Positions 1,965-18,166 of a stretch of DNA of 64,000 nt are shown here, in pieces. Under the pieces are notes generated by a model. The model made no database searches. It was not told the origin of the DNA and saw nothing but the letters and a program-made list of their open reading frames with translations. The DNA comes from Natrinema salifodinae (GTDB taxonomy: Archaea; Halobacteriota; Halobacteria; Halobacteriales; Natrialbaceae). Position numbers and translations under genes: made by a program. Numbering within the stretch: position 1 is the first letter of the stretch; every line of letters begins with the position of its first letter. Where the stretch lies: contig NZ_FOIS01000001.1 in assembly GCF_900110455.1 (NCBI RefSeq), positions 682,001 through 746,000 on the forward strand, given 5' to 3'.

Positions 1965-2148
1965 GTCCCTCGGTTTCGGGGGACACCATAAAAGTTTATG
2001 AGGTATTTATCGCGCATCGGAGCGGCGTCGATCCGCATCGTCCGTGGAGCGGTCACACTGGTACGCGCGCTCGCACGTCGGCCGACGGGCGACACACCGG
2101 CCGAACCACCGTTCTTCTCTTATACTATCGGTGCCTACTGAGCGCGGA

Positions 2149-3363
2149 ATGTCCCATCGTTCGCGGTACATCCACGGGCTGGGGGTCCTGTTCATCGCGA
2201 TCGCGGCGGTCCAATCGGTCGTCAAAGTGGTCAACGGTGGGGTGCCTCTGGAAGCGACGATCGACTTCGTGTTGATCAGCCTTCCGGGGATTCTCTTTCT
2301 GTACGTCGGCGGCTGGTTGTCGAGCACGGACCTCGATCCCGAACTCTACCCCCGGATCGCGATCTGGAGCCTCGGCGGCGTCAGCGTGATGTTCGTCTTT
2401 CTTTTCTTGCGTGCGGTTCACCCCGGAGTCGCCGCCTCGTTCACGTTCGGAGAGCGCGCCATCGCGTTAGCGCTCGGGTCGGTCGCGGGCCTCGGAATCG
2501 GCATTCACGAAGCGCAGGCGATCACTCGAGAGCGGGAGGTCAATCAGCGAAACGAGGCGCTGAAGCGAACGCGGCGACGGCTCGAACGGCGGAATCGGGA
2601 GCTATCGCAGACGCGAGACGACCTCGAAGCCGCGGTAGAACGGTTACAGGAGTCCAACGAGCGATTGGATCACTTCGCTTCGATCGTCTCCCACGATTTA
2701 CGGGAACCGCTCCGAATGGTGACGAGTTACCTGGGACTCATCGAGGACAGGTACGCCGACGACCTCGACGACGACGGCGAGGAATTCATCGAGTACGCCG
2801 TCGACGGGGCCGAGCGGATGCAGACGATGATCGACGACTTACTCCGGTACTCGCGGATCGAGACGAAGGGGAACCCGTTCGAACCGGTCGAGCTCGACGC
2901 CGTGCTCGACGACGTCCGCCAGGACATACGGGTCAGCGCGGACGAGACCGACGCGACGATCACGGTGGAGTCGCTCCCGTGCGTCCGCGGCGACGAGAGC
3001 CAACTGCGCCAGCTGTTTCAGAACTTACTGTCCAACGCGATCGAGTACAGCGGCGACGACCCGCCCCGAATTCACGTCGCCGCCGATCGAACCGAGGCGA
3101 CGTGGGTCCTCTCGGTCCGCGACCACGGCATCGGGATCGATCCCGACGATCAAGACCGCATCTTCGAACTCTTCCAGCGCCTCCACGCGATCGACGACTC
3201 CGAGGGATCGGGAATCGGCCTGGCGTTCTGTCGCCGCATCGTCGAGCGACACGGCGGCGAGATCTGGGTCGACTCCGAGCCCGGTAACGGATCGACGTTC
3301 TCGTTTACGCTGCCGGACGCCGTCGACGCGCCGGTACCCGCCGACGCGAATCCGCAGCACTAG
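2149..3363 (+). CDS. Membrane sensor histidine kinase
   Basis: This 404-residue kinase has four predicted N-terminal membrane helices (roughly residues 10-28, 38-58, 73-92 and 107-124), then a coiled-coil linker of about 60 residues rich in Arg, Glu and Asn. The HisKA dimerisation domain carries the phospho-acceptor His182 in VSHDLREPL. The HATPase domain shows the N-box (FQNLLSNAIEYS), the G1 box DHGIGID and the G2 box GSGIGLAF. I chose the ATG at 2149 because it directly precedes the first helix; an in-frame start about 105 nt upstream would add an arginine/histidine-rich stretch of no evident function. No response regulator gene is adjacent, which is common for haloarchaeal orphan kinases. 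Confidence 0.9.
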   Translation: MSHRSRYIHGLGVLFIAIAAVQSVVKVVNGGVPLEATIDFVLISLPGILFLYVGGWLSSTDLDPELYPRIAIWSLGGVSVMFVFLFLRAVHPGVAASFTFGERAIALALGSVAGLGIGIHEAQAITREREVNQRNEALKRTRRRLERRNRELSQTRDDLEAAVERLQESNERLDHFASIVSHDLREPLRMVTSYLGLIEDRYADDLDDDGEEFIEYAVDGAERMQTMIDDLLRYSRIETKGNPFEPVELDAVLDDVRQDIRVSADETDATITVESLPCVRGDESQLRQLFQNLLSNAIEYSGDDPPRIHVAADRTEATWVLSVRDHGIGIDPDDQDRIFELFQRLHAIDDSEGSGIGLAFCRRIVERHGGEIWVDSEPGNGSTFSFTLPDAVDAPVPADANPQH

Positions 3364-3504
3364 ATCGGGTTCGCGCGAGCGGCGATCACAGACTGAACGG
3401 ATCGCCGCTCGCGATAGCTCACTGCGATCGGTTGCCGATGACGACAGTCAGGGACGCCTACGGCTCCAGGAAGTCATTTGACGCTGCGTGTGGACGTCCG
3501 GACC

Positions 3505-3762
3505 ATGGGGATTCGTACCGCGGTCGATCAGAACCCGCTGCTCGCGTTCGGGCTGCTGTTCATCGCCGGCTGGGCCGTCTTCGTCGGCTCGCACATCATC
3601 AGCGTGATGGGGAGCATCACCGGCGGCGACTGGGTCGGCCGACACGGCCTCGGCGGCCTGATGGGACTGCTCGTGCTGGCGATCTTCCTCGGCATCGTGA
3701 TCGCCGCGTTCGGCGCGCTCAGCGAACCGGAACCGGCGCCCAACGAGTGGCCGCCCGAGTAA
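3505..3762 (+). CDS. Small two-helix membrane protein, unknown function
   Basis: This hypothetical protein has 85 residues and two predicted membrane helices (about residues 10-30 and 50-72), joined by a glycine-rich loop and followed by a short acidic, proline-rich tail. The ATG at 3505 directly precedes the first hydrophobic segment; an upstream in-frame start at 3478 would add only nine residues. I do not recognise a family. It stands between the kinase and the small CxxC protein and shares no obvious operon with either. Confidence 0.65.
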   Translation: MGIRTAVDQNPLLAFGLLFIAGWAVFVGSHIISVMGSITGGDWVGRHGLGGLMGLLVLAIFLGIVIAAFGALSEPEPAPNEWPPE

Positions 3763-3827
3763 CGGCCGCCGACCGCTCGTCGACTGCTCGTCGACCGCCC
3801 GCCGCGACTCCGACCAGTTGATACGCG

Positions 3828-3968
3828 ATGTACGACGAATGCACTCGATGCAGACAGATGGACCGAATTGCCCACCTCAATCCCGACCAGGCGTACCGCC
3901 GCCGTCTCAACTGCGAGGAACGCACGCGCTGGGAGTTCGCCTTCCGCGGGGAGGGCGTGTCGCCGTGA
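3828..3968 (+). CDS. Small CxxC protein, 46 residues
   Basis: This short gene encodes a 46-residue protein with a C-x2-C pair near its start (CTRC, residues 5-8) and a third cysteine near residue 29, which suggests a small metal-binding or regulatory protein. Its third codon positions are strongly G/C-biased. Its TGA stop overlaps the GTG start of the next gene (GTGA at 3965-3968), an arrangement typical of translationally coupled haloarchaeal genes. I do not recognise the family, and the product is inferred only from coding signal and coupling. Confidence 0.55.
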   Translation: MYDECTRCRQMDRIAHLNPDQAYRRRLNCEERTRWEFAFRGEGVSP

Positions 3969-4324
3969 CCCTCGAAATCGACGTCAGCGACCGGTTCCTC
4001 GAGGCCGCGACCGAGTGGGGCGACAACCGCCTCATGGACGACGAGCAGGCCCTCGAGACGAAGGCCGAGCAGGCCCTGCTCGAGATCGAACACCTCGTTT
4101 CCGGTGCGAACGAGGTCGACTTCGAGGTCGACGCCGACGAGGGCGTCATCTACCACGAACCCACCGACGAGCTCGACGCGTTCCTCGAACGCCAGGCCGA
4201 CGAAGTCGGGCTCGACCCTGACGCGGTGCTGGCGTTGCACGTCGATCTGTTCGCCCGCGCGTTCCTCGACGACGCGGACGGCGGGTCGGCGTCGGACCGA
4301 CCGGACGATCCGCGGCCGTTCTGA
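3965..4324 (+). CDS. Acidic haloarchaeal protein, unknown function
   Basis: This 119-residue acidic protein begins with a GTG that overlaps the stop of the preceding 46-residue gene. It is mostly predicted helix (MTLEIDVSDRF, then a long Glu/Ala/Leu-rich segment), has no membrane segment or cysteine, and ends in a low-complexity Asp/Pro/Ser tail. A longer in-frame start at 3818 exists, but the extra 49 residues are arginine- and proline-rich and read out of frame through the small upstream gene. The two genes probably form an operon. Function is unknown. Confidence 0.65.
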   Translation: MTLEIDVSDRFLEAATEWGDNRLMDDEQALETKAEQALLEIEHLVSGANEVDFEVDADEGVIYHEPTDELDAFLERQADEVGLDPDAVLALHVDLFARAFLDDADGGSASDRPDDPRPF

Positions 4325-4705: not shown

Positions 4706-5338
4706 TCAGGCCATCTGCACCGAGATTTCCTCCTCGAACGCGATGTACCCTTCGAGCAGCGCCGCGACGGCCGCGTAGAAGCGCTCGTCGGTACGCTCGT
4801 GGACGTCCGCGGCCAGGTCGTCGATCCACTCGGAGAGGTGCTCCTCGTGGAACACCCGCTGGTAGCCGAACGTCTCCTCGTACCCCGCTCGCTGTCGGCG
4901 GATCAGGTTCCGGAGAAAGGCCAGTTCGACGGCGACGTAGTCGTTCTCCTCGGGGTAGTCCTCGGGCGGCGACCACCCCGCCGCGCCATAGCTGGCTTCG
5001 ACCTCCGCCAGGCCCTCGCCGCGGAAGTCGGTGTCATCGCGGTAGTAGGTCTCGTGGGGGAGGATCGGCGGCCGCGGACCGACGAACAGCCGCGTGAACT
5101 CGCGTTCCAGGTCGGCCTGAACGTCGGCGACGTCGCGGTGGCGGTTCTCTTCGATGAACGCTTCGAGCGCTGCGAACCCCCGATCGAGGTCCTCGCTGAC
5201 GCTGTCTTCGGGGAGCATCACGTCCTCGGAGAGCAGCGTCTCGACGAACGCCTCGTCGGGGACGTCGACGAACGCGTCGATCAGGAAATTCACTAACTCG
5301 GTTCGGGCGTCGTACAGCGCTCGTTGGTTGACACTCAT
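4706..5338 (-). CDS. TorD/DmsD-family chaperone for molybdoenzyme maturation
   Basis: This 210-residue all-helical acidic protein fits the TorD/DmsD/NarJ chaperone family, which binds the Tat signal or apo-form of molybdopterin oxidoreductases before cofactor insertion and export. Recognisable features are the N-terminal LYDARTELVNFLIDAF helix, the EFTRLFVGPRPPILPHETYY segment close to the family's E-x-x-R-L-F and P-x-x-S/E-x-Y signatures, and the C-terminal helices ending in FYAAVAALLEGYIAFEE. It starts 8 nt after the polyferredoxin gene ends, so the two are probably co-transcribed. The natural client is the Tat-exported formate dehydrogenase catalytic subunit encoded divergently at 7776. 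Confidence 0.85.
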   Translation of the reverse strand: MSVNQRALYDARTELVNFLIDAFVDVPDEAFVETLLSEDVMLPEDSVSEDLDRGFAALEAFIEENRHRDVADVQADLEREFTRLFVGPRPPILPHETYYRDDTDFRGEGLAEVEASYGAAGWSPPEDYPEENDYVAVELAFLRNLIRRQRAGYEETFGYQRVFHEEHLSEWIDDLAADVHERTDERFYAAVAALLEGYIAFEEEISVQMA

Positions 5339-5346
5339 GGGTACGA

Positions 5347-7512
5347 TTACTCACCTCGGTGGAGCAGTTGCGCGCGGCAGTCGCCGCAGTACTCGAAGAC
5401 GCTGCCGCGGGCACTCGGCGCGATGCCAGCGACGACGTCGCCGACCTCCGCCTGGATCTTCCGCGCGGTCCCCTCGCTCGTGAACGGCTTCCCGCAGTTG
5501 CGACACTCGCGCATTTCGCCGTCGAAGACCTCGGTCCAGGCGGGATCGGTGCCGTCGCCCGCGGCCTCGTTCTCGTCGTCTTCGACGTCGCGGTTCTCCG
5601 GCAGCAGCGACAGGTCGAGGCCGTCGCGCATCGTGATGACGTCCTCGACGCAGCCCTCCTCGCAGAGCCCGCAGTTCACGCACCGCTCGTGGTTGAACTC
5701 GAGGACGGCGTCGGCCTCGTTCCGGCGGATGGCGTCGGTCGGACAGAGGTTCGAACATGTCGGCGTGAGCGTACAGCCGTCGGCGACCTCCATGCGGCCG
5801 AAGTCCTTCAGCCCGCGGATCACGTCGCGGTCGGGCTCGACGTGCTCGAGGATCGCGCGGACGCTCTCGAGCGTCCAACCGTGGCTGTCGAACGGCGGGT
5901 TCTCGCGCTCGGGGTCGTCGATCCCGCCGGTGGCCTCGTGTTCGCCGACCGGAACCGGCGAGTCGTCGAGAGCGGCGGTGAACGACGAGAGTTCCTCGGC
6001 GAACGCTGCGGGCGCGTCGGGATCGGGCGCGACGAACGCGACCCGCTCGCCGAGTCCCAGGTCCGCGGTCGCGCGATCGAGCCGGTCGACCAGGTCGGCC
6101 TTCGGCTCCGGCCCGGAGTGGCGGCAGTCGCCGCCGCAACCGACGATCGCGACGCCGTCGGCGCCGGCCGCCAGCGCGTGCATCGCGTGGGCCTCGCCGA
6201 CGGTATCGGTACAGTTGACGCGCACGGGGAGGATCGGCGGGTACTCGATATCGGCCTTCCCCGCGGCGGCCAGGCGACCGTACTCGGCCAGCGCGTCGTC
6301 GGCGTCTTCGGAGCAGACGAAGGCGACGACGGCCGTATCGAGGTCCGAGCCCGAACGGTTCAGGAGCCAGCCGCCCTCCTCGCCGGTCGGTCGGAGCAGG
6401 GCCTCGACCTCGCGGGCGAGGCGCTCGTTCGAGGGTTCGCGGAGCCGCGTCGCGCCCGTGGGGCAGGCGCTTGTGCAGGCGCCGCAGTTCTGGCAGGCCT
6501 CCTTGTGGAACTCGACCTCGTCGATCCGCGCGCGCTCGACGGCGTCGTGGGGGCAGGCCTCGACGCACTCGTTACAGCCGGGCTGGCTCGAGTCGCCGGC
6601 CGCACAGACGTCCATCTCGAGGTCGAGGTGGTCGGGTTTCTCGATTCCGCCGAGCAGGTCTTTCACCGCCGAGATCGTCGCCGCGTCGATCGGCGCGGTG
6701 TAGAAGCCGATCCGCCCGCCGCGGGCCGCGCTGGAGGCCGCGGGGTAGACGACCTGGTCGAACTCGAGCGTGCGCTCGGTCCCGTCGAGGTCGATCGCGT
6801 CGGTGGGACAGACGTCGGTCCAGTCGCCGTCGGGAGCCTCGGGGTCGACGTCGACCGGGTAGCGCGTCACCGCGCCGTCCGGGCCCTCGCGGACGCACTG
6901 CATGCAGGACACGCAGTCCTCCGTGACGCGGGACTCGAGGCGGACGGAAAAGTCGCCGAACCGGCCGTCGACGCCGACCACGCGGCCGCGTTCGATCGTC
7001 ACCTCGTCGAGGGCCGGCGCCGCGTCGACGTACTCCTCGCCGTCGGCGATCAGGGTCACGTCCGCATCGTCGGCCAGCGCCGCCGCGGTCTCCGGATCGG
7101 CCACGACCGCGACGCGCTCGCCGGCCGCCCGCGAGACCGATCGGGAGACCGGTTCGGTCTCGAGACCGGCGCGCCTGGCGGTGACCAAGCGAGCGGTCTT
7201 GGCCGTGGCGTCGGCTTCGTCGTGGACCCAGCCGGCGCCCTCTCGCTGGTCGACGAACTCGACGGCGTCGGGGTGAAGCCCCTGCTGTTCGGCGACCCGT
7301 TCGAGCTTTCGCTGGACCCGCGACTCGGGGCACGTGACGATCAACTGGTCGAGGTCGTACTCGTCGATCACCTGCTCCATCGCGGGGAGGCCGTCCTCGC
7401 AGAGCAGGCTCGAACTGGCCGCGACGTCGACGTCGGCGATGCCCTCGCGGACGCCCTCCAGATCGATGTCGCAGGTGTCGGCGCACGAGCAGACGAAGCT
7501 CCCGACCTTCAT
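5347..7512 (-). CDS. Polyferredoxin with HdrA/MvhD-like domains, formate dehydrogenase-associated
   Basis: This 721-residue iron-sulfur protein begins with a cysteine-rich segment (VCSCADTC) resembling the start of HdrA-type heterodisulfide reductase subunits. Several ferredoxin motifs follow: CVSCMQC with CPTDAI, CNECVEACP, CQNCGACTSACP, and near the C-terminus CSNLCPTDAI and CVNCGLCEEGC. Between them lies a region like the MvhD/FlpD hydrogenase delta subunit (VAFVCSE, VNCTDTVGEAHAMHAL, VGCGGDCRHSG). The last 60 residues hold two further C-x2-C pairs (CRNCGKPF, CGDCRAQ) like a zinc ribbon. It has no signal peptide or membrane helix, so it is probably cytosolic. It likely passes electrons between the formate dehydrogenase system and another carrier; that role is inference. 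Confidence 0.8.
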   Translation of the reverse strand: MKVGSFVCSCADTCDIDLEGVREGIADVDVAASSSLLCEDGLPAMEQVIDEYDLDQLIVTCPESRVQRKLERVAEQQGLHPDAVEFVDQREGAGWVHDEADATAKTARLVTARRAGLETEPVSRSVSRAAGERVAVVADPETAAALADDADVTLIADGEEYVDAAPALDEVTIERGRVVGVDGRFGDFSVRLESRVTEDCVSCMQCVREGPDGAVTRYPVDVDPEAPDGDWTDVCPTDAIDLDGTERTLEFDQVVYPAASSAARGGRIGFYTAPIDAATISAVKDLLGGIEKPDHLDLEMDVCAAGDSSQPGCNECVEACPHDAVERARIDEVEFHKEACQNCGACTSACPTGATRLREPSNERLAREVEALLRPTGEEGGWLLNRSGSDLDTAVVAFVCSEDADDALAEYGRLAAAGKADIEYPPILPVRVNCTDTVGEAHAMHALAAGADGVAIVGCGGDCRHSGPEPKADLVDRLDRATADLGLGERVAFVAPDPDAPAAFAEELSSFTAALDDSPVPVGEHEATGGIDDPERENPPFDSHGWTLESVRAILEHVEPDRDVIRGLKDFGRMEVADGCTLTPTCSNLCPTDAIRRNEADAVLEFNHERCVNCGLCEEGCVEDVITMRDGLDLSLLPENRDVEDDENEAAGDGTDPAWTEVFDGEMRECRNCGKPFTSEGTARKIQAEVGDVVAGIAPSARGSVFEYCGDCRAQLLHRGE

Positions 7513-7538
7513 CTCGTCATGCTATATCATGGCAGCAT

Positions 7539-7608
7539 AATAGCGTTATGTGGGGATTCGATGAATGTCCAGTGTAATTTCGATATCGTGGCGAAAATTA
7601 ACGCTATT
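7539..7608. promoter_or_regulatory. Divergent promoter region with a spaced 10-bp inverted repeat
   Basis: AATAGCGTTA at 7539-7548 is exactly complementary to TAACGCTATT at 7599-7608, 50 bp apart, in the intergenic region between the divergent polyferredoxin and formate dehydrogenase genes. The left copy directly abuts a TATA-like sequence (ATTATG on the minus strand, about 26 nt before the start at 7512). Paired sites for one regulator controlling both directions are the simplest reading. Confidence 0.45.
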
Positions 7609-7775
7609 CGTTTATTCTACGGCCATGATCTAGCTCCGATTCTAATTACAGAAAACGTTCCGTAGCAAATATTCATACGGTATAGCGTCGAAGTAGGGTA
7701 TGGCATGGTAAATGTTCGCATTGGACCAACACGATCGCGGAAGGGTGTCAGCCACACGGCGATCGCTCGGCCACC

Positions 7776-10700
7776 ATGAGCGGAGCCGGCGACCCGGTCA
7801 CGATCGACCTCGACCGACGGTCGTTCATGAAAGCTAGCGCGCTCGCCGGCGGCCTGTTCCTCGGCGGCGGCGTGACCGGGCACGTTCTCAGTCAGGAGGA
7901 GGAGGGCGAGGAGGGCGTCGTCGACGACGCCGAGACGTCGAAGGTGATCTGTAACTACTGCGCCGTCGGCTGCGGCTTCAAGGCCGTCAAGGACGGCGAC
8001 TCCTTCGTCGCCCAGGAGCCGTGGTTCGAGAACCCGATCAACAACGGCTCGCTGTGCTCGAAGGGCGCCGGGATTCTCGAGACGGAACACTCGCCCAAGC
8101 GGCTCAAACATCCGATGCAGAAGGTCGACGGCGAGTGGCAGAAGCTCACCTGGGACGAGGCCTACAGCGAGATCGCCGACACGTGGGAAGAGACGATCGA
8201 GGAGTACAGCCGCGAGAGCGTCATGCTGTTGGGCAGCGCTCACCACGCCAACGAGGAGGCCTACGCCATCCGCAAGCTCGCGGCCTTGATGGGCACTAAC
8301 AATGTCGACCACCAGGCGCGGATCTGTCACTCCCCGACGGTCACGGGCCTGGCCAACACCTGGGGCTTCGGCGCGATGACGAACACGATCAACGACTACC
8401 GCAACTTCGATCTGCTCATCATCCTCGGCCAGAACCCCGCCGAGTCCCACCCGATCGCGATGCAGCACATCCTGGAGGGCCAGGCTCGCGGCGGGACGAT
8501 CGTCTCGATCGATCCGCGCTACACGAAGACGTCGGCCCACGCCGACTACTACTATCGGCTGCGGCCGGGGACGGACGTAGCGCTGGTCTTCGGGTTGCTC
8601 AACTACGTCCGCGAGCAGGACGGACTCGACGACACCTTCCTCGAGGAGCGGGTGATGGGCTGGCCCGACGCCGAGACCGAACTCGACCGGTACGACCTCG
8701 ACACGGTCTCGGATATCACCTGGATCGATCAGGCGGACCTCGAGGAGATCGGCGACCTAATCATCGAGAACGTCCCTCACATCCAGGTCGAGTGGGCGAT
8801 GGGCGGGACCCAGCACAACAACGGGACCCAGAACATCCGCGCCTACGCGCTGTTTAGCCTGGCAACCGGGAGCGCGGCTCGCTCGGGCGGCGGCCTGCAG
8901 GTTATGCGCGGGCACGCGAACGTCCAAGGGGCGACCGACCTCGGCGTCGACGCGAGCATCCTGCCGGGCTACTACGGCGTCGACTCGCCTGGCTCGTGGG
9001 AACACTGGGCCGACGTCTGGGATCAGAGCCCCTGGACCAGCGGCAGCACATCGTTCGAGGAGCTGTACAACAAGTTCGAGATGATGCCGGAGGACATGTG
9101 GGGCGGCATGGAGACACCGGCTGAGGTCGAGTCGCAGGGGGCGGGCGTCGACGTCGAGGAGGAAGAAGAGAGCCAAGGGGGCGAAGGAGAGGAGAGCGGA
9201 GGGGGCCAGGGAGACGAGGAGCAGGGCCAAGACCAGGAAGGAGACAACGAAGAGGAGGGCCTGGACCAGGAGGCCCCGATCGACGTCGAGGAGCGGTCGA
9301 TGATGTTCCAGATCGGGCTGACCGTCGCCCGCTGGTACGAGGCGGCCCTCGGGCAGGAGGATCGCCTGCTCCAGTCGAACCTCTACCAGCCCGAGCCGCT
9401 GAAGATGGCGTTCTTCTGGGGTCACTCGGCGAACTCCATCAGCGAGATGGACCGGATGAAACGGGCGATGGAGTCGCTCGACCTCATGGTCGTCGTCGAC
9501 GTCTTCCCGTCGGTCGCCGGGACGCTGCCCGACGACGCGAACGTCATCCTGCTGCCGGCCTCGAGCCAGTACGAGCACGTCCGGACGGTGACGAACTCCC
9601 ACCGCTCGGTCCAGTGGAGCGAGCGGGCCTCGCCGCCGGCGCACAACTCGCGGCCCGACCTCCGGATCATGCAGGAGCTGGCCCACCACCTCGGGTTCGG
9701 CGACCACTTCGACTGGGGAAGCGGCCCCGAGATCCACAACGGCCAGAGCTCCTACGAGGACGCGCTCCGGGAAATCAACCTCGGGACCCGCTCGATCGGG
9801 TACCAGCAGTCCCCCGAGAAGCTCCAGCAACACAAGGAGTACGACTGGGCCTTCAACACGGACAACCTGCGGGCGGACACCAACGGGCTGCCGGTCGACG
9901 GCGACTACTGGATGCTCCCCTGGCCCTACTGGGGCGACGACCATCCCGGGTCGCCGATCATCTGGACGAAGGAGGCCGATCCCCGCGAGGGCGGTCACGA
10001 CTTCCGTGAAAACTGGGGCGTCAGGGCCCCGAACCCCGACGAGTGGGAGCAGTTGGATATCGACAAGGAGTACCCGCTCCAGGAGACCGTCAATCAGGAG
10101 GGCGAGGATGGCCTCGACCTGATTGCCGACTCCTTCGAAGCGCCGTGGTGGGACGGCCAGCAGGTCAACGGCGTCCCGTCGTATCCGAACTACGCGACGA
10201 TGCTGCCGGACGATCCGGCGAACGCGTCGACTCAGACGCTGCCCGTCGAGTACGCGCTCGACGAGTCGGAATCGGTCTACACCGCGGCCCAGGCGCTTAA
10301 CGAGGAGTACGGCGACGAGGTCGACATCGATGCCTCGGCCTACGAGGAGTACGACTACGCCCAACCCGATCCGCCGACGGGTCGCGGGAAGGCCCGCGCG
10401 GTCGTCTGGAACTTCCTCGATACGGTGCCCGTCCACCGGGAACCGGTCGAGAGTCCGCGGCCCGACCTCGTCGAGGAGTGGCCGGCAAACGGCGAACAGA
10501 CCAACTTCTGGCGGCTCGACCAGAACAACGCCTCGGTCCAGCAGCGAGCCACGGAGGCCGTCCACACCGAACTCGGTAGCGATTCCGAGAACGGACGGAC
10601 GGTGATCCTGACCTCCGGTCGTCAGGTCGAACATCAGGGCGGCGGCGCCGAGACGCGGAACAACGAGTACACCGCCGACCGCCAGCCCCACATGTACGCG

Positions 10701-11138
10701 GAGATCAGCCCCGCGCTCGCCGAGGAACTGGACGTCGTGGGCGGCGACGATCACGTCGTCGTCACCTCGGCAGATAAGGGGTCGATCCTGGTGAAGGCCA
10801 ATGTGACGAACCGGGTTAACGAGGAGGAGATCTTCCTCCCCTACCACTGGGGCGGCGTCTTCCACGGCGAGGACAGGAGCCCCAACTGGCCCGAGGGGAC
10901 CGAACCGCTGGCGATCGGCGAGAGCGCGAACATCATCACGCCGAGCGGCTTCGACGCCGAGACGCAGATGCAGGAGACCAAATCGGGCGTCGTCCACGTC
11001 CAGAAGGCCACGCAGTCGGTCGTCGATGACCTCGACATGGAGTTCATCGACTACCCGCAGGACGAGGTCGGGCTCGGCGCACAGAAACAGTACGACGTCC
11101 GCGACTGGGACATGTTCGAGGGAGGTGCAACACAGTGA
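7776..11138 (+). CDS. Formate dehydrogenase catalytic (alpha) subunit, Tat-exported molybdopterin enzyme
   Basis: This 1120-residue molybdopterin oxidoreductase starts with a twin-arginine signal (DRRSFMKASALAGG, residues 13-26), so the enzyme acts outside the membrane. The [4Fe-4S] site is Cys59, Cys62, Cys66 and Cys94, followed by Lys96. The active site reads HQARICHSPTV with Cys184-His185, the position occupied by selenocysteine or cysteine followed by His in formate dehydrogenases. The C-terminal dinucleotide-binding domain includes VILTSGRQVEHQGGG and LPYHWGG. Residues about 450-505 are a low-complexity Glu/Gln/Gly insertion. The gene overlaps the ferredoxin gene by GTGA. It probably oxidises formate and feeds electrons to the quinone pool through the next three proteins. 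Confidence 0.9.
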   Translation: MSGAGDPVTIDLDRRSFMKASALAGGLFLGGGVTGHVLSQEEEGEEGVVDDAETSKVICNYCAVGCGFKAVKDGDSFVAQEPWFENPINNGSLCSKGAGILETEHSPKRLKHPMQKVDGEWQKLTWDEAYSEIADTWEETIEEYSRESVMLLGSAHHANEEAYAIRKLAALMGTNNVDHQARICHSPTVTGLANTWGFGAMTNTINDYRNFDLLIILGQNPAESHPIAMQHILEGQARGGTIVSIDPRYTKTSAHADYYYRLRPGTDVALVFGLLNYVREQDGLDDTFLEERVMGWPDAETELDRYDLDTVSDITWIDQADLEEIGDLIIENVPHIQVEWAMGGTQHNNGTQNIRAYALFSLATGSAARSGGGLQVMRGHANVQGATDLGVDASILPGYYGVDSPGSWEHWADVWDQSPWTSGSTSFEELYNKFEMMPEDMWGGMETPAEVESQGAGVDVEEEEESQGGEGEESGGGQGDEEQGQDQEGDNEEEGLDQEAPIDVEERSMMFQIGLTVARWYEAALGQEDRLLQSNLYQPEPLKMAFFWGHSANSISEMDRMKRAMESLDLMVVVDVFPSVAGTLPDDANVILLPASSQYEHVRTVTNSHRSVQWSERASPPAHNSRPDLRIMQELAHHLGFGDHFDWGSGPEIHNGQSSYEDALREINLGTRSIGYQQSPEKLQQHKEYDWAFNTDNLRADTNGLPVDGDYWMLPWPYWGDDHPGSPIIWTKEADPREGGHDFRENWGVRAPNPDEWEQLDIDKEYPLQETVNQEGEDGLDLIADSFEAPWWDGQQVNGVPSYPNYATMLPDDPANASTQTLPVEYALDESESVYTAAQALNEEYGDEVDIDASAYEEYDYAQPDPPTGRGKARAVVWNFLDTVPVHREPVESPRPDLVEEWPANGEQTNFWRLDQNNASVQQRATEAVHTELGSDSENGRTVILTSGRQVEHQGGGAETRNNEYTADRQPHMYAEISPALAEELDVVGGDDHVVVTSADKGSILVKANVTNRVNEEEIFLPYHWGGVFHGEDRSPNWPEGTEPLAIGESANIITPSGFDAETQMQETKSGVVHVQKATQSVVDDLDMEFIDYPQDEVGLGAQKQYDVRDWDMFEGGATQ

Positions 11139-11809
11139 CACAAGAGGAACCATCCGGCCAGATCATGAGCCAGGGCGTGATGAGCACCGGCGAGGGGATG
11201 CGGATCTTCCCCGACGTCGAGGCCTGTATCGACTGCGGCGGCTGCGTCGTCGCCTGCAAACGCACCTGGGACCGCGAAATTCAAAATCAGCGTATCGACA
11301 TCACGACGATGGCCGAGGGGTCGGCCGGCCCGCAGGGCGAAAACGCCAACAAGACCGATCGATTGGAGGCCGGCGAACGACCTGGCGAGACGAGCCTGCC
11401 GATGCAGTGTTACCACTGCGAGAACGCACCCTGCGTGTCGGTCTGTCCGACCAACGCCTTACAGAAGGAAGACGACGGGTTCGTGTCGGTCAGTGAGGAT
11501 CTCTGCGTCGGCTGCCAGTACTGCCTGTCGGGCTGTCCGTTCGGCGCGCCGCAGTTCCCGGACAGCAACGACGGCGCGGCCCAGATCTTCGGCACCGGCG
11601 GCATCATGGACAAGTGTACCGGCTGTCGCGAGCGCCAAGAAGCCCAGAAGGGACCGGCCTGCGCCGAAGAGTGCGCCACCGACGCGATCCTGGTCGGAGG
11701 CGCCGGCGAGATCGCCGACGAACTCGAGAAGCGAGACAGCGGCCCGTTCTTCAACGACGAGGCCATGGCGGTCATCTTCGGGGCGGAGGACGCCCAGCTA
11801 TTCCAGTGA
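11135..11809 (+). CDS. Formate dehydrogenase iron-sulfur (beta) subunit
   Basis: This 224-residue ferredoxin-like subunit carries four cysteine groups: CIDCGGCVVACK, CYHCENAPCVSVCP, CVGCQYCLSGCP and CTGCRE followed by CAEEC. That is the four-[4Fe-4S] pattern of the FdnH/HybA/DmsB electron-transfer family. It starts with a GTG overlapping the stop of the catalytic subunit. It has no signal peptide and probably travels with the catalytic subunit through the Tat pathway, carrying electrons from the molybdenum site to the membrane cytochrome. Confidence 0.9.
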   Translation: MTQEEPSGQIMSQGVMSTGEGMRIFPDVEACIDCGGCVVACKRTWDREIQNQRIDITTMAEGSAGPQGENANKTDRLEAGERPGETSLPMQCYHCENAPCVSVCPTNALQKEDDGFVSVSEDLCVGCQYCLSGCPFGAPQFPDSNDGAAQIFGTGGIMDKCTGCRERQEAQKGPACAEECATDAILVGGAGEIADELEKRDSGPFFNDEAMAVIFGAEDAQLFQ

Positions 11810-11812
11810 GCC

Positions 11813-12490
11813 ATGAGCGACGAACAACCACCCGACGACTCCCGCGACCGTGACCGCGAGGGCGACGACACCCGGGCCGCGAACGAGCGAGAGCGAACCC
11901 GGGAGCGGACGACTGACGCTGTCGACCGCGAGGCCCGAGCCGACGACCAGGCCGGGGCATCGACATCGACAGTCCGGAACGGCGGCGCGTCCGATCCGGA
12001 GGCCGAGCCGTCGAGCGACGGCGGCGATACCGGGAGCGGCAGCGGCGGCCGCTCCGACCGAATCGCCTTCGTCGTCAGCGCGATCGTCGGTCTCGTACTG
12101 GCGGTCGGCTCTATCGCGCTGGTCTCCGGCCGTGGGCCGTTCTTCGAGGACCTCCTTCGTGTCCGCCCGAGCGTCGAGGGCGGCGGCGTCGGCGCCGACT
12201 GGGTCGTCGGTAACACGGAACCGGCCCTCGAGATCGCGATCGCCGTCGTTCACTTCGCGGACGTCATCATGGGGATCTTCATCCTCCTGATGGTGTTCAT
12301 CCACTGGGCGGCGTTCCGCCGCCTGGCCGCCCGGATGCGACCGCCGGGAGCCCCGACCCGCGGCCGAGACGCGGCGGCGGCGACCGACGGCGGTGCGCCG
12401 AGCGGCGACGCGGAGCCGAATCCGGAGCCTGGCGACGGCGACGAAACCGACACCGATCCAAGCCGATCCGACGGCGGTGATGCCCGATGA
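11813..12490 (+). CDS. Two-helix membrane protein of the formate dehydrogenase operon
   Basis: This 225-residue protein has a long charged, disordered N-terminal region (residues 1-80, rich in Asp, Arg and Gly), a membrane helix around residues 83-103, an outer loop, a second helix around residues 143-164 (VHFADVIMGIFILLMVFIHW), and a disordered acidic tail. It lies between the ferredoxin and cytochrome genes, starting 3 nt after one and overlapping the other by ATGA. It is therefore probably a structural or anchoring part of the complex. His residues at the start and end of the second helix could bind haem, but that is a guess. I do not recognise a named family. Confidence 0.7.
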   Translation: MSDEQPPDDSRDRDREGDDTRAANERERTRERTTDAVDREARADDQAGASTSTVRNGGASDPEAEPSSDGGDTGSGSGGRSDRIAFVVSAIVGLVLAVGSIALVSGRGPFFEDLLRVRPSVEGGGVGADWVVGNTEPALEIAIAVVHFADVIMGIFILLMVFIHWAAFRRLAARMRPPGAPTRGRDAAAATDGGAPSGDAEPNPEPGDGDETDTDPSRSDGGDAR

Positions 12491-13596
12491 CCAACCTCGA
12501 TCACGGGAAGTTCTCCCGCGTAACTACCACGTTCCACTCGCTGCTGGCGCTGACGGTGTTCTTCCTGTTCTTTACGGGGTACGCCATCGCCTTCAACACG
12601 GAGCTGTGGTGGATGGTCGAGCTGATGGGCGGCAATCGAGGCGTGCTCGCGGTCCACCGCTTCGCTGGGTTCTCGCTGATCCTGCTGACCGGGTTCTGGG
12701 TCACCTTCATGCTCCTTCGGTCGGCGAGCCGGGCCAACTTCCGCGAGGTGCTGCCGGACCTCCGGACAGACCTGGCGGCATTCATTCAAGACGTTAAGTT
12801 CGCGCTCGGGCGGACCGACGAGCGCCACCCGGCCGCCCGCCAATTCGCGGGCTACAAGGCCGAGGAGGTGCCGCTGATCTCCTACGTCGGGAAGGGCGTC
12901 ATCTGGATCTTCACCGTGGAGTTGCTCCTCCTGATGCTCTCCGGGCTGCTCATCTGGCGCAAGACCTGGCTGATCGACTTCTACAACTCCCAGTCGGTCG
13001 TCATGGCCTTCGTCGCCTTCCACGGCCTGCTCGGGGTCATCATGCTGATGGGCGTGATGTTCCACACCTTCGAACACGGGTTCCACCCTGCGTTCTACCC
13101 GGTCGAGATGAAGGCGTTCCTGCCGAAGGATCGGACGCCGAACTTCCACGACGATCCGGACGAGTACGAAACCACCGGCATCGATCGGCTTCGCCTGCGC
13201 CCCTCCTGGCGGTGGGCGACCAACCTGATGGGCGTGCTGGTCGTCGTCGGCATCGTCAGCGTGATGATGGCCAGCCTCTCGTACGGCGGCTACCCGGTGC
13301 CCGACCGGTTGCAGTTCAACGAGGGCAGCGTCCTGCGCACCATCGGCGTCAACATCGGCATGCTGGTGTTGCTCGTCGGTCTCATGCTCTCGGTCTACGG
13401 GAACGTCCTCCGGGCGCGGTACCTGCGCCGACGTCGGACCGAACCGGCGGAAGACGTCGAGCGAGCGCCGGCGACCGCCGACGGCGGTGACCGCGACGGC
13501 GGAACCCAAACCAGCACCGACGGCGGCCCGCGACCGCCCGCCGATCGATCGACAGATACCGATCGGCCGGACGGCACCGCCGACTCCGGCGACTAA
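12487..13596 (+). CDS. Formate dehydrogenase cytochrome b-type (gamma) subunit
   Basis: This 369-residue integral membrane protein has five or six predicted helices. The histidines expected of a di-haem b-type cytochrome of the FdnI/HydC group are visible: FHSLLALTVF in helix 1, AVHRFAGFS in helix 2, AFHGLLGVIMLMGVMFHTFEHGFH in a later helix. The C-terminal 60 residues are a disordered Asp/Pro/Thr tail, common in haloarchaeal membrane proteins. It would accept electrons from the ferredoxin subunit and reduce quinone. Its ATG overlaps the preceding gene's TGA. Confidence 0.88.
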   Translation: MTNLDHGKFSRVTTTFHSLLALTVFFLFFTGYAIAFNTELWWMVELMGGNRGVLAVHRFAGFSLILLTGFWVTFMLLRSASRANFREVLPDLRTDLAAFIQDVKFALGRTDERHPAARQFAGYKAEEVPLISYVGKGVIWIFTVELLLLMLSGLLIWRKTWLIDFYNSQSVVMAFVAFHGLLGVIMLMGVMFHTFEHGFHPAFYPVEMKAFLPKDRTPNFHDDPDEYETTGIDRLRLRPSWRWATNLMGVLVVVGIVSVMMASLSYGGYPVPDRLQFNEGSVLRTIGVNIGMLVLLVGLMLSVYGNVLRARYLRRRRTEPAEDVERAPATADGGDRDGGTQTSTDGGPRPPADRSTDTDRPDGTADSGD

Positions 13597-16327: not shown

Positions 16328-17296
16328 TCACGCTCGACGCCAGGCGACGACGTCGGCCGCGGTCGTCCGTTCGAGGGTGCCGCGATCGACGTGGGCGTCG
16401 AGGTGACCCGACAGCGGGTACGCGAGATCGACGTCGAGCCCGTAGCTGCCGCGCCGGTCGACGACGGCGTCGATGGCCTCTTGGAGCGTGATCGTCCCGC
16501 GGTCGTCGACCAGGTCGAGCGCGAGCGCGTCGAGTTCCGACGCGAACGCCAGCGACTCGTCGACGAACGCCGTGACGTCGTCGCCCTCGAAGACCTCGTA
16601 GTGGGTCAGCGAGAGGATTTCCGGCGAGAGGGTTCGAAGCAGTTCGATCGTGTCCCGGTACTCGGGGTAGCGGTAGTACGGCGGCGGCTGGATGGAGTCG
16701 CCGTCGACGGTGAACACGCCGCGGCCGAAGATCGCGTCGCCGCCGAGTACGACGTCGTATTCGGGGTCGTAGAGCGCGAGGTGACCACGCGTGTGTCCGG
16801 GCGTGTGCAGGACCCGGAGGTCCCGGTCGGCGAGCGCCAGGCGCTCCCCGCCGCGGAGGCGGAGATCGATCCGTTCGTCGGGGCCCAGCATGCCGTCCAG
16901 CCACTCGCGGGTGGCCGCGTCGTAGCCGATGTCGTGGTCGGCCTCGAACATGCCGTAGCGCTCGCGCATGATTCGGTCGACGCTCTCCATCAAAGGGGCG
17001 TCTGCGTCGTGAGCCGCGAACGTGACACCAGGTGCGTGCTCGCGGAGTTCGCGGTTGCCGCCGTGGTGGTCGGCGTCGGCGTGCGTGATCACGGCCAGCG
17101 AGACGTCTTCGAGCGACCATCCCTGTGCTTCGAGGAACGGACGGTAGACGGTCGTCGGTGCGTCGACGACGCCGGGATCGACGATGATGGGGCCGTCGGC
17201 GCCCTCGAGGACGTGATAGCCGTGGAGCTTCTCGTCGATGACGGTCTCGACTCGGTAGATTCCGGGCGCTATCGTGTCAGTCTCTATCGCTCGCAT
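16328..17296 (-). CDS. MBL-fold metallo-hydrolase
   Basis: This 322-residue protein belongs to the metallo-beta-lactamase fold. The metal-binding loop reads THADADHHGG, so the usual H-x-H-x-D-H is H-x-D-x-D-H with an aspartate in the second position. Further ligands are visible in HTPGHTRGHLALY and GGDAIFG. The C-terminal quarter forms a helical domain like that of hydrolases with an added winged-helix tail. The substrate is unknown. Because it sits among pentose-oxidation genes, a lactone or thioester substrate is plausible, but there is no direct evidence. Confidence 0.85.
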   Translation of the reverse strand: MRAIETDTIAPGIYRVETVIDEKLHGYHVLEGADGPIIVDPGVVDAPTTVYRPFLEAQGWSLEDVSLAVITHADADHHGGNRELREHAPGVTFAAHDADAPLMESVDRIMRERYGMFEADHDIGYDAATREWLDGMLGPDERIDLRLRGGERLALADRDLRVLHTPGHTRGHLALYDPEYDVVLGGDAIFGRGVFTVDGDSIQPPPYYRYPEYRDTIELLRTLSPEILSLTHYEVFEGDDVTAFVDESLAFASELDALALDLVDDRGTITLQEAIDAVVDRRGSYGLDVDLAYPLSGHLDAHVDRGTLERTTAADVVAWRRA

Positions 17297-17392
17297 TCGT
17301 TCGATCGAATTTTCGTCGGAGCTACAAAAGCGTTCGTTCGAGCGGGGTGTCGGCCGTCGAGCGGTGACCGGCCGGCGGAACCGGGTAGCCGA

Positions 17393-18166
17393 TCAGAACG
17401 CGCTGTCCGCGAACCCGCCGTCGACCGTGAGGACCTCGCCGGTGACGAACGACGCCGCGTCGCTGGCGAGGTAGATCGCCGCGCCGACGATCTCCTCGCG
17501 CTCGGCGACCCGACTCAGCGGGGTCCGCTCGTCGATGCGCTGGCGCTTCTCGGTTCCCTCGGCGTACGTGTCCGCGTTCTGGGGCGTGATGACGAACCCG
17601 GGCGCGATCGCGTTGACCCTGATCTCCGGGGCCAGTTCCTTCGCAGACGCACGCGTGAATGCCTCGACGCCGCCCTTGGCCGCAGAATAGGCCGGCAGGT
17701 TCGCCATCGAGAGCCTGGCCGACAGCGAGGAGATGTTGATGATCGATCCGCCCTCCTCGATCGCCGGTGCGAACGCCTGGGTGACCCGGCGGACGCCGTC
17801 GAGGGCGACGTCGGTGACGAAGTCCCAGTCCTCCTCCGAAATGCCCTCGACGGTCGCCCGGGAGATGGCCCCCTGGGAGGCGACGACGATGTCGATCCCG
17901 CCAAGTTCGTCGACGGCCGTTTCACGAACCCGATCGAGCGAATCGTGCTCGGTGACGTCGCAGGTGACGCGTGCCGTGTCGACACCCCGGTCTTCGATCG
18001 CCGCCGCGGTCTCCTCGACTTTCGTCTCGTCGCGACTCGTCGCGACGACGTCGGCGCCCTCTTCCGCGAAGCCGAGAGCGATCGCCTGTCCGATGCCGCT
18101 GGTCCCGCCGATGACGACGGCGCGTTTGCCGTCGACGGTCACCGGGCTATGTCGGTAATCGACCAT
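17393..18166 (-). CDS. SDR-family oxidoreductase
   Basis: This 257-residue short-chain dehydrogenase has the cofactor motif GGTSGIGQAIA near residue 18, and the catalytic Ser-Tyr-Lys set appears in NISSLSARLSMANLPAYSAAKGG. The C-terminus VDGGFADSAF is typical of classical SDRs. I chose the ATG at 18166 because the domain begins within ten residues; a longer in-frame start at 18361 would add arginine-rich sequence and overlap the divergent dehydrogenase gene. It is probably a sugar or sugar-acid dehydrogenase. A similar SDR at 46430 shares much of its sequence. Confidence 0.86.
   Translation of the reverse strand: MVDYRHSPVTVDGKRAVVIGGTSGIGQAIALGFAEEGADVVATSRDETKVEETAAAIEDRGVDTARVTCDVTEHDSLDRVRETAVDELGGIDIVVASQGAISRATVEGISEEDWDFVTDVALDGVRRVTQAFAPAIEEGGSIINISSLSARLSMANLPAYSAAKGGVEAFTRASAKELAPEIRVNAIAPGFVITPQNADTYAEGTEKRQRIDERTPLSRVAEREEIVGAAIYLASDAASFVTGEVLTVDGGFADSAF

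Follow-up and report, generated by a model that had tools for sequence, protein, structure and literature searches.

The haloarchaeon Natrinema salifodinae encodes, side by side, a polyferredoxin that remains in the cytosol and a formate dehydrogenase (FDH) that is exported across the membrane, which raises the question of what the one does for the other; namely, whether the polyferredoxin carries electrons, senses redox state or helps to mature the enzyme. The polyferredoxin (PFD; 721 aa, ATG start) is the product of an open reading frame at 5347..7512 on the reverse strand of the window, by which we mean the whole 64,000-nucleotide stretch of DNA analysed here. The original prediction had described a cytosolic protein with an HdrA-like N-terminus, an MvhD-like domain and at least five ferredoxin motifs, and this description holds: there are five ferredoxin-type sites, no Tat motif in the 721 residues searched and no transmembrane-like stretch (maximum 19-residue Kyte–Doolittle mean of 1.22).

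A TorD/NarJ-family chaperone gene lies 8 bp downstream of the PFD gene on the same strand (4706..5338; PF02613, E = 1.4e-28). Neither this gene nor the HycF-like C-terminus and the lack of a functional FAD domain described below had been mentioned in the original prediction. A divergent intergenic region of 263 bp (7513..7775) separates the PFD–TorD pair from a forward-strand FDH operon, which encodes the Tat-exported molybdopterin catalytic subunit FdhA (7776..11138; Tat motif DRRSFMK and a Cys-His active site), the ferredoxin-type beta subunit FdhB with 16 cysteines (11135..11809), a small membrane protein (TM2) that is kept in many FDH loci (11813..12490) and a cytochrome b561-type membrane subunit (12487..13596; PF01292, E = 1.2e-17). 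When the 263-bp region was scanned for promoters, only weak matches to a consensus of bacterial type came up, and these were left out of account. The genome has a second PFD copy that is 73% identical and is found on another contig in an identical gene order. On the other side of the chaperone gene, two small open reading frames, c9 and c7 (3432..4324, forward strand), recur beside haloarchaeal FDH loci and are at most candidate members of the system; c5, a 133-aa CxxC protein (for example, at 17157–17558 of locus L073), likewise recurs beside haloarchaeal FDH/PFD loci, and no Pfam family was found for c5, c7 or c9. The gene for a PhoR-like membrane histidine kinase (2044–3363) is also located near the FDH locus.

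The cysteines of PFD form the five ferredoxin-type sites and three further sets. Site 1 comprises Cys 200/203/206/235, sites 2 and 3 comprise Cys 303/313/316/320 and 340/343/346/350, site 4 comprises Cys 580/-/586/590, with threonine in place of the second cysteine, and site 5 comprises Cys 611/614/617/621. The other sets are of HdrA-N type (8/10/38/61), of FlpD type (400/434/459/463) and a C-terminal Cys4 set with the spacing CxxC-x35-CxxC (670/673/709/712). Pfam finds many Fer4 matches, and an AlphaFold2 model calculated from 30 aligned relatives has a mean pLDDT of 85 and a pTM of 0.83.

Much of the chain shows HdrA and MvhD ancestry. NCBIfam places the resemblance to HdrA at residues 2–124 and 296–510, with scores of at most 103 bits compared with cut-offs of 1100–1400, and residues 1–375 of the model align with HdrA over 317–366 residues (Z = 16.6–18.3). 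An HdrA-like N-terminal domain (residues 1–120; 7153..7512, reverse strand), identified by sequence match and model, is followed by a collapsed FAD domain of the HdrA/thioredoxin-reductase type (residues 126–291; 6640..7137, reverse strand) into which the site at Cys 200/203/206/235 is inserted. Pfam reports no FAD domain match in PFD, the GxGxxG motif is gone (the aligned stretch reads VADPETAAAL), and residues 129–291 align with only about 108–164 residues of FAD/NAD domains that measure 280–450 residues, the NAD half being missing. The structure prediction proposed earlier as a check for an FAD domain therefore yields a collapsed remnant. The fold-match list (VIA) mostly concerns this 129–291 domain, and absent matches elsewhere in the protein are uninformative. 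A central ferredoxin domain with two clusters (residues 295–375; 6388..6630, reverse strand), whose eight cysteines are invariant across the family, leads to the FlpD/MvhD-like domain (residues 395–515; 5968..6330, reverse strand; PF02662, E = 5.8e-19), which matches 5odc_D and 7bkb_F with a TM-score to target of about 0.68. One canonical cysteine of the FlpD/MvhD [2Fe-2S] site is replaced (Ala409 at the position of MvhD Cys16), and in the relatives from Desulfobulbaceae and Helicobacter the canonical FlpD cysteines are all gone.

We judged conservation over relatives down to 17–20% identity (Helicobacter, Desulfobulbaceae and SAR324). From Helicobacter and SAR324 to the haloarchaea, 15 ferredoxin cysteines and the C-terminal Cys4 set are invariant; these are the ferredoxin cysteines within 303–350 and 580–621 and the ribbon cysteines 670/673/709/712, together with a few neighbouring residues. 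Position 583 is threonine in the main haloarchaeal clade and cysteine in distant relatives. Thus four ferredoxin sites are kept throughout the family, whereas the HdrA-N cysteines, the FlpD cysteines and the 200–235 site vary among relatives, and a basic residue near the first CxxC of the Cys4 site is incompletely conserved. Because of this pattern, the HdrA and MvhD labels denote ancestry, and the constrained part of the protein is the polyferredoxin core with its HycF-like tip. We infer that the HdrA-N domain, the FAD remnant and the FlpD part are a scaffold retained from an HdrA/MvhD-type ancestor rather than a bifurcating machine.

The HycF-like module spans residues 572–719 (5356..5799, reverse strand) and contains two ferredoxin sites followed by the Cys4 metal site. 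Its fold matches that of E. coli HycF (Z = 9.5, 3.0 Å over 125 residues), and the profile match (E = 5e-18) extends from the two ferredoxin sites through the terminal CxxC...CxxC; the HycF-type ferredoxin cysteines of 580–621 number seven of eight in the window protein and eight in relatives. Among six E. coli Fe–S proteins, the profile of the terminal Cys4 part matches HycF only, and the C-terminal profile as a whole scores 69 bits against HycF compared with 42 bits, a ferredoxin-level value, against NapF. Sequence profile and model thus identify the module as homologous to HycF, the subunit that touches FDH in the formate hydrogenlyase (FHL) of E. coli. According to one study, HycF has two [4Fe-4S] motifs and a CxxC-x34-CPxC metal site, and this site in FHL has been proposed to tune the affinity for FdhF (PMC9474812).

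We surveyed 391 genomes of Halobacteria, one per species. The window protein as query found PFD in 108 of the 391, FdhA was found in 108 of the 391 (E < 1e-100), and of the four FDH genomes that had no match to the query, three proved in a profile search to contain a divergent PFD. In the final table, 107 genomes have both genes, 4 have PFD only, 1 has FDH only and 279 have neither. Counted by genus, and with the caveat that genera are incompletely independent, the figures are 39 with both, 4 with PFD only and 1 with FDH only (Fisher P = 2e-18). The proposed coupling of PFD to the Tat-exported FDH is therefore strongly supported, PFD being present in all but one of the 108 FDH genomes and in 39 of 40 FDH genera (P = 2e-18). 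TorD is on the same strand and within 200 bp of PFD at 41 of 58 haloarchaeal loci, many of the pairs overlapping by about 4 bp, and FdhA lies within 8.5 kb at 47 of 58, counts that are lower bounds because gene calls are approximate in GC-rich haloarchaeal DNA. Tat signals are present in 49 of the 58 haloarchaeal FdhA proteins, and several of the others look like mis-called starts or variant motifs. No TorD gene and no Mo-enzyme gene lies within about 9 kb of four PFDs (L045, L064, L081 and L087). At 8245–10122 of locus L036 (genome G159) there is a PFD frame that lacks the first ~90 residues and adjoins an Mrp gene, with no Mo enzyme in reach; it is perhaps a relic.

FDH was rejected as the sole partner on account of a subclade associated with Phs-type enzymes. 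In three of the four PFD-only genomes (G212, G382 and G285), the PFD gene forms an operon with the gene for a Phs/Psr-like catalytic subunit exported by Tat, and these operons also hold FeS and NrfD subunits, a TorD-family gene, an Mrp/ApbC-type Fe–S carrier and MobA; G029 has its second PFD copy in this same setting. The single FDH genome without a detectable PFD (G128, locus L094) carries TorD and a 66%-identical Phs-like enzyme. More distant Phs-like enzymes (~45% identity) occur without PFD, and PFD is therefore not general to all exported Mo enzymes. When partner types (FDH class A, FDH class B with NrfD, FDH class B with cytochrome b, and Phs) were mapped on the PFD tree, 5 label changes were required compared with a minimum of 14 in 1,000 shuffles, although label shuffling ignores shared descent, which contributes to the fit of clade and partner. 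The original prediction had named work with an unrelated enzyme as evidence against the coupling. In part this is what we found, as one subclade has a Phs/Psr-like partner in FDH-free genomes; elsewhere the link to FDH is strong.

The family extends into bacteria. One scan of the collection identified relatives in SAR324, Deltaproteobacteria, Entotheonella, Ramlibacter, Desulfobulbaceae, Helicobacter, Aquificota, Sulfurospirillaceae and others. We left out scan rows that matched the central ferredoxin only (Lokiarchaeota and others), which look like ordinary HdrA/MvhD-type proteins. The genuine bacterial relatives adjoin TorD and in many cases also FDH alpha and beta genes; shorter relatives (350–400 aa) adjoin TorD and other Mo-enzyme subunits, at times with MobA or Mrp. 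The catalytic subunits at bacterial loci have Tat motifs with one exception, the start of which may be mis-called. In five bacterial PFD–TorD loci (L134, L135, L143, L162 and L166), the FDH catalytic gene is interrupted by a TGA immediately ahead of the active-site His codon, which fits selenocysteine. Eight short bacterial polyferredoxins (L146, L148, L149, L156, L158, L163, L175 and L176) have an internal RRxF(L/F) at residues ~170–219, and the N-terminus of E. coli NapF contains SRRGIL. Judged by its sequence, this twin-arginine-like element of the short proteins is possibly a candidate TorD-binding element.

FDH obtains its FeS clusters and sulfurated Mo cofactor ahead of export; in this class, FDH occurs in 108 of 391 genomes, yet FdhD is undetected. 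A search with PF02634 detected FdhD in 0 of 391 haloarchaeal genomes, including the 108 with FDH, compared with 8 of 14 control genomes, including M. jannaschii and M. acetivorans; TIGR00129 likewise failed to detect it in 21 haloarchaeal genomes. According to a review, some organisms that carry FDH have no fdhD (PMC10609526). The window FdhA retains its Cys-His active site although FdhD is undetected in haloarchaea. FdhE was found in 0 of 36 PFD or FDH genomes, and its domain (PF04216) has no Pfam match in PFD; this absence is weak evidence because the family is narrow (only E. coli was positive among the 14 controls). A replacement of FdhD by PFD is not favoured, as FdhD (TIGR00129) is also present in 11 of 15 bacterial PFD genomes. 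The TorD–polyferredoxin pair is a concrete candidate for a part in this process.

PFD probably serves Tat-exported Mo/W enzymes as an accessory protein in the cytoplasm, acting together with the TorD encoded beside it. The pattern of the Phs subclade and the pairing with TorD favour maturation, a role that the original prediction had raised and not chosen, and we consider it likely that PFD, linked to TorD, is a factor that matures or redox-activates the enzyme in the cytosol, in a role like that of NapF or FdhE, and docks on it before export. The HycF-like module makes docking on FDH plausible. The FdhAB dimer, bound by TorD, would be docked by the HycF-like C-terminus much as, within formate hydrogenlyase, HycF makes contact with HycB and FdhF; the wire of clusters in PFD would then deliver electrons (or clusters), reducing and completing the [4Fe-4S] and Mo-bisPGD centres of FDH, and only activated enzyme would be released to Tat. 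Some points count against maturation: the number of clusters in PFD exceeds the apparent need of simple maturation, no PFD is detectable in G128 despite its FDH, TorD and Phs-like enzyme, and the four PFDs noted above are remote from TorD and Mo enzymes. We propose more tentatively, and as less likely than not, a module shared across domains that would mature both FDH and Phs/Psr-type Mo/W enzymes for export by Tat, in which TorD acts with a polyferredoxin of HdrA descent that inserts its HycF-like tip into the alpha–beta dimer before this is exported. If so, haloarchaeal FDH would be matured without FdhD or FdhE, and Mo sulfuration and FeS completion would take another path.

The main rival to maturation is a steady cytosolic electron route, in which PFD would dock on FdhAB retained in the cytosol and pass formate electrons to ferredoxin or another acceptor, or the reverse. 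Because PFD is homologous to an electron-transfer subunit, HycF, it could carry a steady current, and both the HycF-like module and the chain of cluster sites fit such a role; moreover, E. coli FDH-H can feed the ferredoxin-like HydN and YsaA (PMC6004506). We nevertheless regard this route as unlikely, and less likely than maturation, given the Tat signals in most haloarchaeal FdhA proteins and at nearly all bacterial loci examined, the lack of a dedicated acceptor gene that is constant at PFD loci, the service of the family to Phs/Psr-type enzymes and the pairing with a chaperone. The form of electron route suggested by the HdrA and MvhD labels fares worse. A true bifurcating or confurcating subunit, as in the Fdh–Hdr complexes of methanogens, would account for the clear HdrA and MvhD descent seen in sequence and fold, but the FAD motif and the NAD half are missing, the HdrA-N and FlpD ligands are not conserved, and HdrB (TIGR03288) reaches the cut-off in 0 of 20 genomes, with weak partial matches only. 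The original prediction is not supported in this respect, and we gave up the candidate on the lost FAD site and the absent HdrB, its probability being close to nil.

Two further explanations concern the Cys4 site and the genomic neighbourhood. PFD might be a redox sensor or gatekeeper through which TorD, or release to Tat, responds to the redox state of the cytosol, with Cys4 as the switch in the way suggested for the metal ion of HycF, a view encouraged by the invariance of this HycF-type site, by the basic residue near its first CxxC, by the pairing with TorD and by the proposed tuning role of the equivalent site in FHL. It would leave four or five cluster sites unexplained and rely on a basic residue that is incompletely conserved, and we think it improbable. 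Enzymes of the aldehyde:ferredoxin oxidoreductase (AFOR) type use ferredoxin, and an AFOR gene lies near 38 of the 58 haloarchaeal PFD loci, directly adjoining PFD in L091/L092, such that PFD could be the redox partner of AFOR. However, AFOR is mostly on the opposite strand 2–5 kb away, has no match in the PFD genomes G382 and G285 and has relatives in most PFD-free control genomes. As an obligatory partner AFOR was therefore rejected, and a role for PFD as its redox partner is very improbable. The gene for this AFOR-type tungsten enzyme (for example, 8102–10692 of L033; ~38 PFD loci) is accompanied by DUF7124 and often has YqeC and MobA nearby.

TorD-linked maturation as the preferred reading also bears on annotation, in that proteins labelled ‘HdrA/MvhD-like’ can be accessory proteins rather than bifurcating enzymes. 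PFD shares with HdrA and HdrA2 the N-terminal domain, the thioredoxin-reductase-type domain with an inserted ferredoxin site and the two-cluster ferredoxin, and HdrA2-type proteins likewise finish in MvhD. Unlike HdrA, it is without the FAD motif, the NAD subdomain and HdrB, pairs with TorD and exported enzymes and carries an extra HycF-like C-terminus; from MvhD/FlpD it has the domain fold but incomplete cysteines. With HycF it has in common the order of two ferredoxin sites and CxxC-x34/35-CxxC, with a basic residue near the first CxxC, whereas in PFD the module is fused behind HdrA/FlpD-derived parts and the locus has neither a hydrogenase nor a complex-I-like membrane arm.

The closest parallels in role are among accessory factors. 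In the literature we found nothing direct that links TorD, a polyferredoxin and FDH. The exported FDH of formate-oxidizing haloarchaea has been described (PMC5437934, PMC6176080), and the available portions of these accounts do not discuss PFD. Ferredoxins and lipoproteins occur in 43% of TorD–fdh operons in the part of Bay et al. 2015 available to us (PMC4464133), and the bacterial relatives of PFD may be among the ‘hypothetical ferredoxins’ of these operons; the ferredoxins are uncharacterized in that part, which describes neither haloarchaeal members nor the HdrA/HycF architecture. FdhM, a TorD homologue, is essential for the FDH of C. jejuni (PMC10609526, PMC4148689). FdhE, an accessory factor limited to exported FDHs and equipped with CxxC rubredoxin-type sites (PMC10609526), resembles PFD in its accessory role and belongs to a different family. 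NapF is similar in being cytosolic, in having four cluster motifs and in its tie to an exported Mo enzyme; the sequence similarity is at the ferredoxin level with no specific relationship, and PFD differs in being more than four times larger, in its Cys4 site and in pairing with TorD rather than NapD. In vitro reconstitution of the R. sphaeroides NapA FeS cluster required NapF (PMC10609526, PMC4148689), which is implicated in the maturation of its exported Mo enzyme (PMC10609526).
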